Shown one piece after another: positions 126-16,918 of a stretch of DNA of 42,433 nucleotides. The translations under genes were made by a program, and so were the position numbers. The DNA lies in assembly GCA_913009765.1 (NCBI GenBank), contig CAJVYT010000002.1:1-42433 (forward strand), in the 5' to 3' direction. Numbering within the stretch: the first letter of the stretch is position 1; each line of letters opens with the position of its first letter. The DNA is from an uncultured candidate division Zixibacteria bacterium. GTDB taxonomy: Bacteria; Zixibacteria; MSB-5A5; GN15; FEB-12. Below the pieces are notes generated by a model. It saw nothing but the letters and a program-made list of their open reading frames with translations, ran no database searches and was not told where the DNA came from.

Positions 126-154
126 TTGACTTATCCGGATTGAAAGAGTACAAT
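126..154 (+). promoter_or_regulatory. sigma70-type promoter of the left plus-strand operon
   Basis: TTGACT (126-131), a 17-base spacer and TACAAT (149-154) match the bacterial housekeeping promoter closely. Predicted transcription start is near 161, which is the first base of the structured leader's first arm. It lies 20 bp downstream of the adapter junction, so both elements are on the genuine side. Confidence 0.75.
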
Positions 155-159
155 GTAAA

Positions 160-286
160 TATGGGCTGCGTGGTAAAAATAAACCTGAAAAATCAAATGC
201 CTTTGGCAGAGGTCTGTTCGTTTACAGTTAGCCTCCTCAGTTTTCTGTAACCACACAGCCCATACCCTCTGCCAGAGGCTTTTTTT
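160..286 (+). ncRNA. structured leader RNA with interleaved (pseudoknot-type) dyads and terminator
   Basis: Two long complementary pairs are interleaved. Arm A (160-174, TATGGGCTGCGTGGT) pairs with A' (250-264, ACCACACAGCCCATA), 14 of 15 positions. Arm B (199-212, GCCTTTGGCAGAGG) pairs with B' (266-279, CCTCTGCCAGAGGC) at every position, one as G-U. The order A-B-A'-B' means both helices can form together only as a pseudoknot. B' can instead fold on itself (CCTCT/AGAGG) followed by seven T residues, an intrinsic terminator. The RNA starts at a strong promoter and ends just before the ribosome site of the first replication gene. It is either an attenuator or a small phage RNA of about 125 nt. 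I recognise no known family. Confidence 0.6.
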
Positions 287-287
287 A
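266..287 (+). terminator. intrinsic terminator at the end of the leader
   Basis: CCTCT-GCC-AGAGG forms a 5-bp hairpin with a 3-base loop, followed by C and TTTTTTT (280-286). The stem is short, so read-through is plausible. The upstream arm at 199-212 is complementary to the whole hairpin and could act as an antiterminator. Confidence 0.6.
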
Positions 288-303
288 TTTATAAGGAGTT
301 TTA

Positions 304-1017
304 ATGGCAGACAATAAGCGATGGTTTAAAGTCTGGACATCTATTTTAACTGATCCGGATATGGCAGATTGTCATAACGATATTGCTGGAGCTTGGGTAA
401 GGTTAGGAGCTTTGATTGCTCAACATGGAAATAACGGTAAAATCAATATTTCCAAATCCCATTTTTACCGGATTATTCATTTATATACTGCTGATGATGT
501 AACGGTACAACATTTTTTTGATAAGTTAAAAACCCTCAATATAAAGATTAAATCCTGTAACGACACTTTTTCCGTTACATTTGAAAAATGGCATAAATAT
601 CAAGTAGATAACTCATCTGAAAGGGTTAAAAAATATAGGCAAAATGTAACGGTGCAAGAAGAGAAGAGAAGAGAAGAGAAGAGAAGAGAAAAAGAAGAGA
701 AGAAAACTCCTAATCCTGAAGCAAAAAAACTTGCTTCACTATTAGGAGATTTAATTTTAGAAAACAATCCCTCTTATAGAGAACTGAATAACAGAAAGAC
801 TGATAAAACACTTCAACGATGGTCTGCAGATATAGATAGACTTATTCGGATTGATAAGAAAAAAGTAGATGAAATTGAAAAAGTGATAAAATTTGCACAA
901 AATGATTCATTCTGGAAAGCAAATATATTATCCGGAGCAAAACTAAGAGATAAATATGATCAGCTTCGTATGAAAATGGATAAAAACGGAGGTTATTATG
1001 AAGCCTGGGATGCATGA
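304..1017 (+). CDS. replisome-organiser-like replication initiation protein
   Basis: This 237-aa protein resembles the N-terminal winged-helix domain of phage replisome organisers. It opens with MADNKRWFKVWTSILTDPDM, followed by a helical AWVRLGALIAQHGNNGKI segment and then KWHKYQVDNSSERVKKYRQ near residues 98-116. That last signature is common in phage initiators, which load a helicase loader at an origin. A highly charged EEKRREEKRREK linker (about residues 118-133) precedes a helical C-terminal domain. AAGGAG lies 6 bases upstream of the ATG. The next gene overlaps by 20 bp, which supports an initiator/loader pair. The linker is encoded by a perfect pentanucleotide repeat, so its reading frame may be unstable. 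Family assignment is by motif resemblance only. Confidence 0.75.
   Translation: MADNKRWFKVWTSILTDPDMADCHNDIAGAWVRLGALIAQHGNNGKINISKSHFYRIIHLYTADDVTVQHFFDKLKTLNIKIKSCNDTFSVTFEKWHKYQVDNSSERVKKYRQNVTVQEEKRREEKRREKEEKKTPNPEAKKLASLLGDLILENNPSYRELNNRKTDKTLQRWSADIDRLIRIDKKKVDEIEKVIKFAQNDSFWKANILSGAKLRDKYDQLRMKMDKNGGYYEAWDA
661..690 (+). repeat. pentanucleotide microsatellite (GAGAA)x6 inside a coding region
   Basis: Six perfect tandem GAGAA units, followed by imperfect purine sequence to about 705. They encode the Glu/Lys/Arg linker of the replication protein. The 5-bp unit is not a multiple of three, so gain or loss of one unit would shift the reading frame. Confidence 0.95.
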
Positions 1018-2856: not shown

Positions 2857-3418
2857 AGAGCATCATGCTTGTGAGGAGGTCATCAAAGTCTGTGAGCAAG
2901 ATGAAACAGATGTGGTCAAGTTGGTCAAGTTGTTGATTCAAAAACAAAAGCTCGATGGGGCGAACTGGCTATTGTCCCACTTTCTGGGAGAAAAAGGCCG
3001 GATAAAGTATGCCATATATGCGGCCAGACAAGTGTTGCCTATCTATGCCAATCAAGTGGGGCCTATGTATAAAAGTGCTAGTCTTGATGGTGATACACTC
3101 CACAAGACGTTAGGAGATGCCGAGAAATATCTTCAATCCAATGAATATATTTTTTCCGCCAATCTCGTTGCCAAGGTCGCTTATATCCTGGCGAAAGTTG
3201 CTATTACTATTAATTCCAGCCTCGCTGTTGAAAAAGCTATTGACGCTCTTGCGCATGCTTTTGCTGCTGCTGATATAAGTTATATCATCACTGATGCTTG
3301 CAAGGCCAGTTCTTATGCCGCTGATGCTACCTATACTATCGCTTATAAGAAAGAAGAAACAAAAATTCTAACTTATGGGTTGGAATTGTTGAAAACGGAG
3401 GTAAAACAATATGATTAA
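2831..3418 (+). CDS. Ala-rich helical-repeat protein (putative immunity protein type)
   Basis: The 195-aa product begins MEITKKWLKEHHACEEVIKV, the ITKxWLxxxxACEExV signature of short alanine-rich phage proteins often auto-labelled 'putative immunity protein'. A conserved VVKLVKLLI and a tryptophan helix follow. Next come amphipathic Ala-rich segments (YAIYAARQVLPIY, AIDALAHAFAAAD, CKASSYAADATYTIAYK), and the end is KILTYGLELLK. AGGAGGTGAT lies 8 bases before the ATG. A paralogue with the same N- and C-terminal signatures is on the opposite strand at 4849-5463. The alanine repeats suggest a helical scaffold. The function is unknown and the immunity label is unproven. Confidence 0.75.
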   Translation: MEITKKWLKEHHACEEVIKVCEQDETDVVKLVKLLIQKQKLDGANWLLSHFLGEKGRIKYAIYAARQVLPIYANQVGPMYKSASLDGDTLHKTLGDAEKYLQSNEYIFSANLVAKVAYILAKVAITINSSLAVEKAIDALAHAFAAADISYIITDACKASSYAADATYTIAYKKEETKILTYGLELLKTEVKQYD

Positions 3419-3719
3419 AGGTCAATGCCAGAAAATCGAATCTCTCAGCGATGGAAGTTTGAAGTTGTCAATATACATTGATAGGAGATATTTCAGCGAT
3501 TGCGTTCCGCTCCTGTATCAGAATGTAACAGTCAGCCTACCGGATGAAGGAATTATCGAGGACACCCGGCAAGAATTCTATCGGAAAATGATTGAATCTA
3601 TTGAGTCTCTTGCCAAAAGTATGAAGGAAGAAATCGAAACCGAACAAAAGGGAGATGAAATGGCCGAAAATATTACGTCTAGATTGATTATTAATCCAGT
3701 AGGAACGGCTATAGATTAA
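3411..3719 (+). CDS. 102-aa phage protein of unknown function
   Basis: The ATG overlaps the previous stop by 8 bp and is preceded by GGAGG at 3398-3402. The first half is beta-rich with repeated S-D-G and Y-I-D motifs (SLSDGSLKLSIYIDRRYF). The second half is helical and acidic (YRKMIESIESLAKSMKEEIETEQKGDE). It is the last gene of the left plus operon, directly upstream of the structured RNA and terminator. No family recognised. Confidence 0.75.
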   Translation: MIKGQCQKIESLSDGSLKLSIYIDRRYFSDCVPLLYQNVTVSLPDEGIIEDTRQEFYRKMIESIESLAKSMKEEIETEQKGDEMAENITSRLIINPVGTAID

Positions 3720-3727
3720 TACTCACA

Positions 3728-3819
3728 CAGGAAGGGTAAAGCCATGCAGGCCGTCTGTAGTGTTCCCATCCATCGGTTGGCCACAGCTACAGCGTCCGTG
3801 CCTGCATGGGGCCTTCCTG
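3728..3819 (+). ncRNA. long imperfect-hairpin RNA before the terminator
   Basis: Nested perfect stems are visible: CAGGAAGG (3728-3735) with CCTTCCTG (3812-3819), CCATGCAGGC (3742-3751) with GCCTGCATGG (3800-3809), and CTGTAG (3755-3760) with CTACAG (3787-3792). TGT/ACA extend the last stem, with a loop near 3764-3782. Stems of 8, 10 and 6 bp separated by internal loops make a rod of about 92 nt, immediately followed by an intrinsic terminator. No clear promoter lies just upstream (only TTGATT and TATAGA with a 20-base spacer). It may be a processed 3' end RNA or a stand-alone small RNA. No known family recognised. Confidence 0.6.
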
Positions 3820-3823
3820 CAAT

Positions 3824-3867: not shown

Positions 3868-4275
3868 TTATATCTTTCGAAAAGGTTTATTCCATTTTCC
3901 AATTTCGATGTGGAGGGCAAAATTAACATTATAATAATCTGTTGTAGAGTCTGAATCGTCGTAATTATAATAATTTGCTATTTCAGTAGCCCTTTTGAGT
4001 ACTTTCCATGCTTGAGGGGTTAACTGTGTTCCATTATTCCACCCTGGCATTCGTACCAAAGTGAAATGATTGAGTTGTGCATATTTTTTGCCATTGAGTA
4101 TTGTTTCCCAGGGAGCCGCCATTAAAGCAATACATAACGATTGTCCCATAGAGTACCTTTCAATGGTCGCGGAGAATTTGCAGTCTGGAAACTCTTTTTT
4201 GAGTTGTTTTTTTATTCTTTGTGCTATCTCTTTAATATCTATTGCAATTTTCTCTGATTTTGTTAATGTTGTCAT
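3868..4275 (-). CDS. LPD29-like small phage protein
   Basis: The 135-aa product (MTTLTKSEKIAIDIKEIAQR) has a helix KKQLKKEFPDCKFSATIERYSMGQSLCIALM followed by aromatic, polar strands and a C-terminal NVNFALHIEIGKWNKPF. The 'EFP..KFS...ERYS.G.S' pattern resembles the LPD29 family of large-polyvalent-protein-associated domains, also found as free-standing genes in phages and plasmids. Function unknown. The start at 4275 is chosen over an upstream in-frame ATG because GAGGAATGAG precedes it, lying at the end of the RHH gene one base away. It is the distal gene of the long minus operon. Confidence 0.7.
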   Translation of the reverse strand: MTTLTKSEKIAIDIKEIAQRIKKQLKKEFPDCKFSATIERYSMGQSLCIALMAAPWETILNGKKYAQLNHFTLVRMPGWNNGTQLTPQAWKVLKRATEIANYYNYDDSDSTTDYYNVNFALHIEIGKWNKPFRKI

Positions 4276-4276
4276 C

Positions 4277-4435
4277 TCATTCCTCCTCCAACCTGTCAAA
4301 AAACGCCCTGACAGCCTGATTGATTATTTTGTTGCGACTAAGACCTTCGTCCTCAGCCAGTTGATACAGCCGACTTCTGAGTTCCCGATCCAGATAGACC
4401 GTTTCAGCTCCGCCGGTTACGGTTAGATTAGTCAT
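4277..4435 (-). CDS. ribbon-helix-helix DNA-binding protein
   Basis: This 52-aa protein reads beta strand (AETVYLDRELRS), helix (RLYQLAEDEG), then LSRNKIINQAVRAFFDRLEEE. That is the layout of the CopG/Arc ribbon-helix-helix family, where the strand pairs in a dimer and inserts in the major groove. Likely a small transcriptional regulator of phage genes. The ribosome site GGAGGTATCAA is 7 bases upstream, inside the end of the preceding gene, which it overlaps by 8 bp. No toxin partner is evident next to it, so a toxin-antitoxin role is not supported. Confidence 0.8.
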   Translation of the reverse strand: MTNLTVTGGAETVYLDRELRSRLYQLAEDEGLSRNKIINQAVRAFFDRLEEE

Positions 4436-4698: not shown

Positions 4699-4862
4699 TC
4701 TTCTCCTCTCTTTGCTAAGAAGTTATCTTTTGAATCAAAAGCTTCCATTATGAATCCTACTAGTGAAGCCATAGCATAGTTATACTCATCAAGTTCGTAG
4801 CATTGACAGTCCTCTTTACTTAACTTTAAACCAGGTCCTTTAAAATCCCTATAGTCTTTCAT
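4695..4862 (-). CDS. 55-aa phage protein
   Basis: MKDYRDFKGPGLKLSKEDCQ starts after AAAAGGAGGAGACAG. The second half (NYAMASLVGFIMEAFDSKDN) is an amphipathic helix. ATGA overlap with the downstream Cys-rich peptide and 14-bp overlap with the upstream Ala-rich gene. No family recognised. Confidence 0.7.
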   Translation of the reverse strand: MKDYRDFKGPGLKLSKEDCQCYELDEYNYAMASLVGFIMEAFDSKDNFLAKRGEE

Positions 4863-7169: not shown

Positions 7170-8053
7170 ATTTCCTCGGTTTCTGGAAATGGTACTGATT
7201 CTTTCGGCTCTTCTGCCATTATCTTTTTGAGTTTTCCATAAGCTGTCTTGGCGGCTGCTTCAGATATTTCATACAGAGATGTTTTACCTTCGATGGCCTC
7301 TCCCTTTTTATTCTTGAAGGTAGTCAAACTATGCAAAGTTAATGCCATTTGTTCTTTGTCATGCTGACAATAATCATTCAGCAGTTCAAGCAGTTTAAGG
7401 TGCATATCGGAAAGTTCACCCTTTTCTTTAACTGTTGAGCTTTTGGATGGCATAGGTAGTTCTTTTTCTGATTCTATAATTACTTCATTTGTTGGTAATT
7501 CATCTTTGATAGTATTAATTTCTTCAGGTGAATACATCCCTCCGAAATCTTCAGGAAAGGCTTCTCTCAATGCTTGCACAAGAGCTACTTTTTTAAGCAT
7601 GGTACGAGGTTTTTCCGACCACATTTGATTTGGTATCTTTCTGCCTGTTGGTTTACCATTTTTATATTCATCTTTAGTACCAACATATTCCTGATAATCT
7701 ACTTCACATTTGATAGGCACTTCATATCCCTGTACATATACTTCGGCCCAAGCTGTTTGACCATCTTCGGTAATACCTGTTCTATGGCCTTGATAGTTGG
7801 GATTCTTTACGGCTCTTTTGAGAAAAGTTTCTTTGCCTGTTACGATAGTCATTTTATTACCATACTTGATAAGATAGGCTTCACGCAAAAATGGATTTAG
7901 TTTTTGATATTTGCATAATGTCAAAAACATCATTATCTCTTGATCGGTAACTTTCGTTGGATCTCCATTAACCAGATAATTCCTGACTATTTCCGGCGAT
8001 AGAATTATTTCTTGCCCCGTCATACTGTGATATTTTACTATGTTTGCACTCAT
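7166..8053 (-). CDS. bet: Bet/RecT-family single-strand annealing recombinase
   Basis: The 295-aa protein shows the core of phage Bet recombinases: IMMFLTLCKYQKLNPFLREAY, then KYGNKMTIVTGKETFLKRAV, and GQTAWAEVYVQGYEVPIKCEV with EKPRTMLKKVALVQALREAFPEDFGGMYSPEE. It is slightly longer than lambda Bet (261 aa) because of a C-terminal helical extension (about residues 200-295). It anneals complementary single strands for phage recombination and concatemer formation. The neighbouring nuclease would supply the strands. Its ATG shares one base with the preceding stop (TAATG), and a good AGGAGG site lies within the upstream gene. Confidence 0.92.
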   Translation of the reverse strand: MSANIVKYHSMTGQEIILSPEIVRNYLVNGDPTKVTDQEIMMFLTLCKYQKLNPFLREAYLIKYGNKMTIVTGKETFLKRAVKNPNYQGHRTGITEDGQTAWAEVYVQGYEVPIKCEVDYQEYVGTKDEYKNGKPTGRKIPNQMWSEKPRTMLKKVALVQALREAFPEDFGGMYSPEEINTIKDELPTNEVIIESEKELPMPSKSSTVKEKGELSDMHLKLLELLNDYCQHDKEQMALTLHSLTTFKNKKGEAIEGKTSLYEISEAAAKTAYGKLKKIMAEEPKESVPFPETEEI

Positions 8054-8241
8054 TATCCTGCCTCCTTTTGTTCTTTAATTTTTTTGCCATCAAGTATATC
8101 ATGGCAGCATTCCTTACAGTAGCCATGTGAGAATATGAAAAGTTTCGGATCCATTTTTCTCCAATCTGACCCCTCAACCCCCTGCCCTTCGTCATCAAGT
8201 AACCTGTGGCATATACAACAGGCTTTGATAAAGTTTGACAT
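8053..8241 (-). CDS. 62-aa zinc-finger-like protein
   Basis: ACCICHRLLDDEGQG, then FIFSHGYCKECCHDI: a CxxC pair and a second CxxC within the 'FSHGxCxxC' motif, which occurs as a small metal-binding segment at the ends of bacterial signalling proteins and as separate phage proteins. AGGAGG precedes the ATG. Translationally coupled to Bet. Its role in recombination is unproven. Confidence 0.75.
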   Translation of the reverse strand: MSNFIKACCICHRLLDDEGQGVEGSDWRKMDPKLFIFSHGYCKECCHDILDGKKIKEQKEAG

Positions 8242-8277
8242 AATAGCCTCCTTATAATTTTGCTCTCTCCTTCCTTG

Positions 8278-8592
8278 TTATACATCAACCACAATATTTC
8301 TATCCGGGCAAATGTGATGTTCCCACCATTCAGCATCATTGTATTCGCCTCTGGAAGACCATGTGCCATCTGCGTACCAGATAAATCCAAATATTTTTTG
8401 ACCGCCATATCCGTTATCATATTCAAAACCGTTTTTCTTATCGAGTTTAGGCAACACCTCTTCCCATGTGCCTTCTATCCTTAAAGGTTCTTTTCCATAA
8501 CCTTTAAACATGGCGATTTTAACAAATTCAACTTCTCTGCCTTCAACATGCCTAAGTATTTCTTGTTTCGCATTATGCTTGTATTCTTTCAT
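8278..8592 (-). CDS. 104-aa conserved phage protein
   Basis: MKEYKHNAKQEILRHVEGRE starts after AAAGGAT-type purines. The C-terminal two-thirds (FEYDNGYGGQKIFGFIWYAD, GTWSSRGEYNDAEWWEHH) is the beta-rich, Trp/Tyr-rich domain seen in many small phage accessory proteins. No biochemical function is known to me. It lies upstream of the recombination cluster in the same operon. Confidence 0.75.
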   Translation of the reverse strand: MKEYKHNAKQEILRHVEGREVEFVKIAMFKGYGKEPLRIEGTWEEVLPKLDKKNGFEYDNGYGGQKIFGFIWYADGTWSSRGEYNDAEWWEHHICPDRNIVVDV

Positions 8593-8595
8593 CCT

Positions 8596-8784
8596 TTAAT
8601 CCTCCTTTTCAACCCCCAATATTCTTGCCAACTCTCTCAGGTCGGCAATGGCATCCATGAGGCTTATTTCATCCCCGGGTCGCCATCCATTCTGCCAATA
8701 TTCAAGCATCTCCCTCACAGTCAATTTTTCATCGTCAGCATGTATGATGGTTGATAATATTTCTCTACGGGCCAATATAGACAT
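8596..8784 (-). CDS. 62-aa helical phage protein
   Basis: MSILARREILSTIIHADDEK follows AAAGGAGGAGC. All helical with acidic residues (MLEYWQNGWRPGDEISLMDA, LRELARILG). Only 3 bp separate it from the next gene. No family recognised. Confidence 0.7.
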   Translation of the reverse strand: MSILARREILSTIIHADDEKLTVREMLEYWQNGWRPGDEISLMDAIADLRELARILGVEKED

Positions 8785-13760: not shown

Positions 13761-14411
13761 CTATATCATTATCGCAGATGGTTTAACCTGGATTTTTTCA
13801 CTCAATCCCTTCAACGGCTTTAAATCCACAACCGGCTGGAAAGACTGTTTTTCGGTCGGAATCTCTGTGACTTTTTCCGGCTCTTTTACATGTTGTCCAA
13901 ATGGCAATTTTTCTTTAGCGTATTCGATCAGTTCAATTCTTTCCTGAATAGTTGATTTATCAAACATCCTCGCCAACTTATCCACTGTTTCTTTTGCCCT
14001 CTCAACGACCGGCCTCACAATAATCCGTTTCTTTCCCGTAACAGAGACCTTATCACTGATCTCTCGTCCCTGGAGATCAACCTTGCCCTCTGAAACCTTA
14101 GTGAGGTATTTCGGATCATCACTTGCTGCAAAGAGCTTAGATAAAAAACTCCGAGAGACATTGTATCGATCTCCGATCTCTGCCAGGGGCATCTGATTTT
14201 TCTTCGTCTTCCCATCGTTGTAAGAGTTAAAAAGTTCTTTAACTCGCACAAAAAAGACTGCTCTCAGACTTCTGGACATTGCATCAAGTCGGTTAGTCCT
14301 TGTTGCAACTTCCAACTTCAATCCGTCCAGAACTTCAAACGATGTCGCCTGAGATACTCTCTCAATCAAAGATGATGTCCCTTCTTCTTTTTCTGTTTCT
14401 TTTTTTGCCAT
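13761..14411 (-). CDS. 216-aa HTH DNA-binding protein
   Basis: The start MAKKETEKEEGTSSLIERVS follows GAGGAGTAG. An upstream open extension crosses the hairpin array and is not coding. A helical first half (LDAMSRSLRAVFFVRVKELF) precedes a helix-turn-helix: MPLAEIGDRYNVSRSFLSKL around residues 76-95. The C-terminal third holds another helix (RAKETVDKLARMFDKSTIQE) and a Pro/Lys-rich tail. It is probably a phage regulator or replication/partition-type DNA binder. A ParB-like or KorB-like role is possible but there is no nuclease/CTPase motif. It is set between a terminator and the tandem hairpins. Confidence 0.75.
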   Translation of the reverse strand: MAKKETEKEEGTSSLIERVSQATSFEVLDGLKLEVATRTNRLDAMSRSLRAVFFVRVKELFNSYNDGKTKKNQMPLAEIGDRYNVSRSFLSKLFAASDDPKYLTKVSEGKVDLQGREISDKVSVTGKKRIIVRPVVERAKETVDKLARMFDKSTIQERIELIEYAKEKLPFGQHVKEPEKVTEIPTEKQSFQPVVDLKPLKGLSEKIQVKPSAIMI

Positions 14412-14435
14412 TTTTCTACTCCTCATGACATATTT

Positions 14436-14502
14436 TTGTGGCTTAAGCCACAATCTCACACAAAATGTGTGAAACGCACATAATGTGCAAGCCCTAAAAG
14501 GC
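14436..14502. repeat. tandem array of four short hairpins
   Basis: Four adjacent dyads: TTGTGGCTTAAGCCACAA (14436-14453, perfect 18-bp palindrome), CACACA-AAA-TGTGTG (14457-14471), GCACAT-A-ATGTGC (14476-14488) and GCC-CTAAAA-GGC (14491-14502). They lie 25-91 bp upstream of the HTH gene, in its 5' leader. They may be operators for the HTH protein, or RNA processing/stability elements. The rest of 14503-14697 has only the TTAAGCCCTCA repeats (14616-14626, 14651-14661) and no supported gene. Confidence 0.85.
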
Positions 14503-14697
14503 ATAGAAACAAACTCACAAGCCACCAGTATCATCGCCACTATATAATCATTACAATTATATCTGTGGCCTGGTCTGGCCTCGTGATCTACTCAGTTATC
14601 AAAGATCAAGGGATGTTAAGCCCTCAATTTCTGCATATCGGGCGCTTGGATTAAGCCCTCAGCCCAGCCCCTCACGAGTGAGAGGCGGAGGGAAAGC

Positions 14698-16147: not shown

Positions 16148-16783
16148 ATGAAAATAATGAACTGGCAAGCCTTTCGATATAATAATATCTTCCGAACTGA
16201 ACGAGGTGGAAAGCATAAGAAGCGGGGCAAGAAAAAAACCGGGCCTCGTCCGAAAATTGTACGCTATGACCATGAAGGCAATGTTATCGGGATTATTCCC
16301 GGCGGTATTACGATGGGTCAACAGCTTGCAATCCTGCGCCAACAGGAATCCCGCCCCCGGAAACGGAAGATCAGAACATATGTCCGGGAAAGAAAAACCA
16401 CACCAACATCAGCAGAATTGAAATTATATCGGCAATTACAGCAGAATGGCTATCAAGTATTGTTTCAACATCCTTTCCAGCATGGGAAATCTTTTTATAT
16501 CCTTGATATATATGTATGTGGCAAGAAAATAGCTATTGAAGTGGACGGCGGTTATCACAATACTGCCCGTCAGAAGATCAGAGATCAGAAAAGAGATCAA
16601 ATTTTACAAGCAACCGGTTTGAAAGTATTGCGTATCAGCAATGATGATGTATACAATCACATTGATACTGTGATTGAGCGAATTAATACGATAGCTGTAA
16701 GTCCATGCGGCGAGAGTCGGCCAAAACAAACCCGCCCTGAAAAGAAAAGGGATAATCAAACATGGCTTGTATCGTATCGCTAA
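16148..16783 (+). CDS. DUF559-type PD-(D/E)XK/Vsr-like endonuclease
   Basis: The 211-aa product has a basic N-terminal half (HKKRGKKKTGPRPKIVRYDH). A DUF559 domain follows: TPTSAELKLYRQLQQNGYQV, ILDIYVCGKKIAIEVDGGYH and DQILQATGLKVLRISNDDVY. Acidic residues D120, E131 and D133 sit where Vsr/PD-(D/E)XK nucleases bind metal. Members are thought to cut or nick DNA. A role in phage defence evasion, homing or host DNA degradation is possible. AAGGA lies about 10 bases upstream. The gene stands alone between two control regions, as free-standing homing-type genes often do. Confidence 0.8.
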   Translation: MKIMNWQAFRYNNIFRTERGGKHKKRGKKKTGPRPKIVRYDHEGNVIGIIPGGITMGQQLAILRQQESRPRKRKIRTYVRERKTTPTSAELKLYRQLQQNGYQVLFQHPFQHGKSFYILDIYVCGKKIAIEVDGGYHNTARQKIRDQKRDQILQATGLKVLRISNDDVYNHIDTVIERINTIAVSPCGESRPKQTRPEKKRDNQTWLVSYR

Positions 16784-16810: not shown

Positions 16811-16918
16811 TGTTAGTGCTCACTTACACACTAACATAGGGGCTTATTGACCCTTCCTTTGAACATCATGAAATCTAATGATGAATAGTGATGTGAACCA
16901 GCATCATGATAGTGATGC
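16811..16918. promoter_or_regulatory. operator-like dyads upstream of the late promoter
   Basis: TGTTAGTG (16811-16818) and CACTAACA (16829-16836) form an 8-bp inverted repeat that contains the CTAACA half of the TTACTAACA iterons. GCATCA (16901-16906) and TGATGC (16913-16918) form a second dyad. Both lie just upstream of the rightward promoter. Confidence 0.5.

Follow-up and report, generated by a model that had tools for sequence, protein, structure and literature searches.

We analysed a leader RNA predicted near the start of contig CAJVYT010000002.1, a stretch of 42,433 nt that is referred to throughout as the window; coordinates are window positions on the + strand unless another record is named. 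The leader lies between a promoter-like site and a DnaD-like/replisome organizer gene, and the elements of the region are collected in Table 1. A sequence-only reading of the same DNA had placed the leader immediately before a replication gene, and the protein match of that gene bears this out. Positions 49–106 recur in many unrelated phage records and represent what we take to be an Illumina adapter, an assembly artefact, so that phage DNA begins at about position 107 and bases 1–106 should not be taken for phage sequence. An open reading frame (ORF) at 50–250 is partly adapter.

Table 1. Elements of the leader and the gene that follows it.
Element	Position	Strand	Remarks
Sigma-70-like promoter, TTGACT-17-TACAAT	126–154	+	Consensus match 10/12; start predicted at about 161
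Arm A	160–174	+	Predicted RNA 5′ end; holds AUG of leader ORF
Leader ORF	161–250	+	29 codons and stop; AUG is the predicted first base; spans B; stop at start of A′
Arm B (core 199–212)	195–212	+	Putative antisense segment within the A:A′-closed domain
Arm A′	250–264	+	With A closes a 105-nt domain
Arm B′ (core 266–279)	266–283	+	Putative target of B; by itself forms a weak 5-bp hairpin
U-run TTTTTTTATTT	280–290	+	Directly 3′ of core B:B′ stem; terminator-like
Shine-Dalgarno-like AAGGAG of replication gene	293–298	+	Sequence
DnaD-like/replisome organizer gene	304–1017	+	Presumed regulated gene; phrog_2514, 4e-25; ATG at 304

Two pairs of complementary arms interleave in the leader in the order A-B-A′-B′. 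Arms A and A′ pair at 14 of 15 positions, with one C.A, and the cores of B and B′ pair at all 14 positions, including one U.G; the scored B:B′ helix reaches 195–212/266–283. The 14-bp core ends exactly where the U-run begins, and the pairing energy of B with B′ is −28.6 kcal/mol. An interleaved-pair score of 32, taken from the weaker of the two helices, was reached by 0/1000 dinucleotide shuffles and by 0/854 tiles from the rest of the window, and the interleaving described in the sequence-only reading was thus upheld. Both B and B′ closely match a single imperfect palindrome and, read as a direct repeat, are identical at 11 of 13 positions; since each is self-complementary, their mutual complementarity is partly explained. 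Such copies would suit a DNA-level element, in which the palindromes are bound by a dimeric protein or serve as an origin hairpin. We regard this as very improbable: the window holds only one further copy (2 mismatches, inside ORF 13761–14540), B and B′ alone fold weakly or not at all in the 16 other leaders (0 to −3.6 kcal/mol), and A/A′ and the U-run are left unexplained.

In a consensus scan of positions 1–2000, the site at 126–154 was the sole + strand promoter-like site ahead of the gene start, and its spacing predicts that transcription begins at about position 161. The same scan returned 9 promoter-like sites where 7.1 were expected, so that the promoter by itself is statistically unremarkable; the "strong promoter" of the sequence-only reading keeps its position and its consensus match, but the promoter count alone is not above chance. 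The proposal that B′ is also a terminator hairpin fared similarly, as B′ alone (266–278) forms a 5-bp hairpin followed by T's, but a weak one (−4.4 kcal/mol). RNA 161–290 folds at −42.9 kcal/mol (z −4.7), and this strong fold, together with its own promoter-like site and a terminator-like end, would also fit an independent small RNA with its 3′ end near position 286 that targets other RNAs, with the replication gene reached by incidental read-through or from another promoter. This seems improbable to us, as the scan shows no further + strand promoter-like site from 154 to 304 and, in several phages, leaders of this plan immediately precede a gene start that has its own Shine-Dalgarno-like sequence.

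No close relative of the leader was found in the databases searched. Neither a single-protein scan nor a leader pattern scan of viral contigs returned a relative; a distant blastn search of the leader against phages gave only three weak matches (E 0.6); blastn of 107–1017 against plasmids gave one match, inside the gene; and tblastn of the replication gene and of the terminase against phages gave distant matches only. Protein alignments to GTDB genomes yielded none in one search and 80 distant loci in another, and a second contig encoding the same replication protein exists. Among 19 loci with terminase relatives, a DnaD-like match was present in 1/19 records, and the window's second gene was matched in 0/19. 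We gathered relatives of the replication gene in IMG/VR and in GTDB genomes; three of the IMG/VR sets comprise the best 80 matches each. Ahead of several distant relatives of the gene, and downstream of a promoter-like site, the arms follow one another in this order in unrelated letters; apart from duplicates of one contig, the leaders compared share no detectable or alignable sequence. A literature search turned up no description of such a leader, although one may still exist.

To count such leaders, we used a promoter-anchored scan that required −35/−10 matches of at least 10/12, arm A within 42 nt, no more than 25 nt from A′ to B′, and a T-rich sequence at B′. Twelve of 1076 distinct leaders, the window included, scored at least 56, a score reached by 0/10,760 shuffles and by no region 400 nt downstream or 600 nt upstream. 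At a score of 52, the offset regions gave 1 against 12 leaders, and when the T requirement was dropped, 11 leaders scored at least 58 against 0.4 expected. Of the twelve, L143 is an AT repeat, L398 lacks a gene signal and L295 precedes a recombinase-like gene. As the scoring had been fixed after the first examples were seen, and the promoter cut-off was later raised from 9 to 10, the test was rerun on loci fetched after the score was fixed. In this held-out set 4/561 loci passed where 0.05 were expected: L204, before a replication gene; L203, before a 70-codon ORF that precedes a replication gene; and again L295 and L398. Upstream of DnaD-like genes, 7/214 distinct regions scored at least 46 against 0.4 expected, and 5 scored at least 50 against 0.05 expected, the window being included in both counts. 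A scan without the promoter requirement was noisy, with 270 hits at scores of at least 50 against 244 in shuffles (27,910 windows), 34 against 15 at 62 or more and 9 against 1 at 70 or more, and many of its hits were GC-rich. Its top hit (score 89), at the start of a replication-like gene in L067 (3746–3890), has the plan; it was left out of the counts for want of a site passing the promoter cut-off and of a U-run.

The genes that follow these leaders include replication genes, TnpB/OrfB (L001), HNH (L152) and others of unassigned function; the gene after the L015 leader had no PHROG match, and its replication label rests on an alignment search. Single contigs may carry more than one leader, with three in L001 and two each in L073 and L203. 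Pairing of B with its own B′ ranged from −12.8 to −32.1 kcal/mol (mean −22.4), whereas non-cognate pairs averaged −6.5 kcal/mol; separation is incomplete, as the strongest of 272 non-cognate pairs reached −17.8 and one within the L001 contig −14.6 kcal/mol. In the L001 phage contig, at 7529–8678, a leader of this plan immediately precedes a TnpB/OrfB_IS605 gene, and at 4789–5000 of L295, in a Patescibacteria genome contig, one precedes a gene judged by eye to be serine-recombinase-like.

According to the sequence-only reading, no described family has this plan. That claim did not survive comparison with the C4 and CI RNAs of P1, P4 and N15, which share the order of arms. In the c4-icd-ant region of P1, A/A′ corresponds to the closing stem of C4 (8343–8360/8401–8418 of L162), B to its b′ segment and B′ to b2 before icd. 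The plan scores are 68.2 for P1, 64.8 for P4 and 65.8 for N15, against 69.8 in the window. In the same kind of scan the C4 element had the top score on the minus strands of both P4 (64.8, at 8502) and N15; one P4 shuffle reached 68.2, and the N15 shuffles went up to 58.8. On the scanned P1 plus strand it came third, after the RepA iteron repeats and a site annotated as part of plp. The Rfam C4 model (RF01695) marks P1, P4 and N15 at the same places as the plan scan. C4 is described in published work as an antisense RNA that is processed, acts in trans and pairs through its loops around a ribosome-binding site. A table in PMC2864571 gives Proteobacteria and phages as the range of C4 RNAs, and according to PMC4825925 the P4 CI RNA halts transcription of P4's own replication genes via seqA and seqC; we also consulted PMC12197685, PMC10448788 and PMC5320573.

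The window leader and C4 (P1, P7, N15) share the A-B-A′-B′ order, a closing stem, B inside it and B′ just before the next gene, and C4 is co-transcribed with the gene it silences, as is proposed for the window leader. The CI RNA of P4 (seqA/seqB/seqC), a member of the Rfam C4 family, likewise has the same plan. The domain measures 105 nt in the window, as compared with 77 nt for P1 C4 and about 88 nt for the Rfam matches. As to the overlap of the C4 target with the ribosome-binding site of the next gene, B′ ends 9 nt before AAGGAG and lies on the U-run instead. There are also differences: the window transcript is predicted to start at A, whereas C4 is cut by RNase P from a longer RNA; B′ lies on a terminator-like U-run that neither C4 nor the CI RNA has at its target; and the window leader precedes a replisome organizer gene rather than icd/ant. 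It shares no recognisable sequence with C4 RNAs, only the plan, and a MIR399 match in the window was rejected as lying far below its gathering score. From its plan, the window leader may well work like C4, but neither the model nor the upstream target pair of C4, to which we return below, was found, and we do not class it as a C4 family member.

In countertranscript attenuation of plasmid rep genes, as in pT181 and pIP501, the leader chooses between termination and expression of the initiator. The window resembles these systems in having a leader ahead of a replication gene that may decide between the same two outcomes. It differs in that its antisense segment lies within the same transcript, and no antisense promoter was found on the minus strand in 107–400 by consensus scan, the only method applied there.

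A leader ORF is a recurrent part of the plan. Of the 17 chosen leaders, 14 have an ATG within A or adjoining it whose frame extends across B; shuffles predict 4.7, and a comparison set of 1046 other promoter-anchored leaders predicts 6.4 (P = 1.9e-4). The test is not independent, as these very leaders were the ones that drew attention to the ORF. Twelve of the 17 came from the promoter-anchored scans, L015, L131 and L139 with scores of only 47–50, and the remaining five, L001-rep, L050, L063, L102 and L203-rep, were picked by eye or taken from the replication-gene scan. In L050 and L063 no site passed the promoter cut-off, and the −10 position was placed by eye; for L001-rep and L102 the replication-gene scan favoured another B pair, or other A and B pairs, than those used. 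Scan finds that were dropped are L143, L398 and L295, for the features given above, L157 and L019 (weak promoter or no U-run) and L007 (GC-rich, weak). Inclusion of L295 and L398, which lack a leader ORF, lowers the count to 14/19. When the frame had to pass the start of A′, 13/17 leaders qualified with ATG as the start codon (4.5 expected) and 14 when any start codon was allowed (9.2 expected). L131 and L139 are followed by ORFs of only 23 and 48 codons, and in L075 the first ATG after the leader opens only 14 codons, the replication frame starting about 90 nt downstream. All three C4 leaders examined also have the ORF, with its ATG at A−1 to A+12; it stops just before the next gene in P1 and runs past its start in P4 and N15.

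The leader ORF and the predicted folds bear on the main rival to an antisense mechanism, an attenuator acting only in cis, in which A:A′ and B:B′ form in one transcript as a pseudoknot or kinetic switch set by translation of the ORF, a protein or a ligand. In minimum-energy folds of growing pieces of the window RNA, A:A′ is fully formed once the transcript reaches 264, before B′ exists, and across the leaders compared A:A′ is mostly paired (72–99%) in the domain alone. Nonetheless, the nested state with B:B′ is the energy minimum in 11 of 15 leaders, a set that includes L295 and leaves out L063, L102 and L203-rep. Given these folds, the two helices would form a pseudoknot, or exchange, or B would meet B′ between two molecules. 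An ORF that begins at or near A and crosses B, the minimum at B:B′, the U-run adjoining B′ in the window and a 5-nt overlap of A′ with B′ in the replication leader of L001 all suit a switch in cis. Against it, the leader peptides look unrelated to one another by eye, and a closed domain with antisense and target in this order is the arrangement of C4, which is described as trans-acting. We hold the cis-only attenuator to be possible, though doubtful.

The reading we prefer, to which we give about an even chance of being correct, is that the leader is a C4/CI-like, co-transcribed and self-encoded antisense attenuator. Its footing is the pairing of the arms, their statistics, their recurrence in other phages and the matching plan of known C4/CI leaders; the start site, the termination, the action in trans, the feedback or immunity and the part played by the ORF are inferred. 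Transcription would begin at A, and A:A′ would fold as A′ is made, giving a closed 105-nt domain that presents B. A duplex of B with B′ would form a 14-bp stem ending at the U-run, in effect an intrinsic terminator whose 5′ half is B. This strand could be supplied in trans by RNA from earlier rounds, or in cis by the same RNA. Intrinsic termination by strands annealed in trans belongs to the general background of this reading. As the RNA accumulates, transcription would stop before the replisome organizer gene, resulting in negative feedback and in the exclusion of any further copy of the same phage, and translation of the ORF that begins in A would unfold both A and B, making read-through more likely. 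Copy-number control is possible, and autoregulation or immunity is as likely. Neither an integrase nor a repressor was seen among the part of the window's ORFs that was scanned. The 13 phage contigs examined, which may be fragments, represent 8 of the 11 other phages with leaders (L063 via its duplicate L064); they hold one resolvase, in the contig of L001, and HTH_3 matches in four, three of them over the cut-off. Without an integrase in view prophage immunity appears doubtful, and we consider feedback or timing as likely.

Several observations weigh against the antisense attenuator. The Rfam C4 model found nothing in the window, at its gathering score or at E ≤ 10, while the P1, P4 and N15 controls were matched; nor did it match L203, L204, L075, L131, L139 or L152 at the gathering score, or L001, L073, L050, L102, L063, L067 or L015 at E up to 5. 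C4 has a second target pair upstream (a1/b1 or seqA), for which the window has no room: with arm A only about 6 nt downstream of the −10 box, a start at the predicted position would leave no transcribed sequence ahead of A. The sequence-only reading had B sequester B′, as the energies of most relatives would allow, but the window itself goes the other way, its nested state with A:A′ being more stable than that with B:B′ by 5.8 kcal/mol (−44.0 against −38.2), and B is only 35% unpaired in the domain, at the bottom of the 35–82% range of the 15 leaders. No close relative with compensatory changes in the arms was found in the databases searched. At scores of at least 48 the offset-region controls gave 3.5 against 13 leaders, which is not negligible, and only about 3% of the DnaD-like genes examined have such a leader, which is thus uncommon before them. 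Finally, no tyrosine integrase was found in the 13 phage contigs, 8 of them leader-bearing.

A broader proposal, which we advance tentatively and with less confidence than the attenuator itself, is that these leaders belong to a wide "split-terminator" class of phage RNAs, in which B, as the terminator's 5′ half, is packed into a self-closed domain derived from the same transcript and, after accumulating, completes the terminator on later transcripts in trans. With its sequence free to drift while A:A′ and B:B′ stay complementary, each leader would mainly silence itself and could act as a timer or an immunity device independent of repressor proteins. If the plan does exist without conserved sequence, covariance-model searches would miss such leaders, and they would have to be sought by the order of their arms. 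Phages in which no integrase is detected might then time or limit replication by self-encoded antisense RNA, and several independent copies might run in one genome.

Two further features of the window were noted. A DUF3800-V RNA (RF02964, 54.7 bits) is present at 3726–3821, followed by a GC-rich inverted repeat with T's, and no DUF3800 match was found in the adjoining ORFs 3411–3719, 3868–4299 and 4070–4426. At 16148–16783 lies a DUF559/MTES_1575 endonuclease-like gene, beside a helix-turn-helix gene at 16906.
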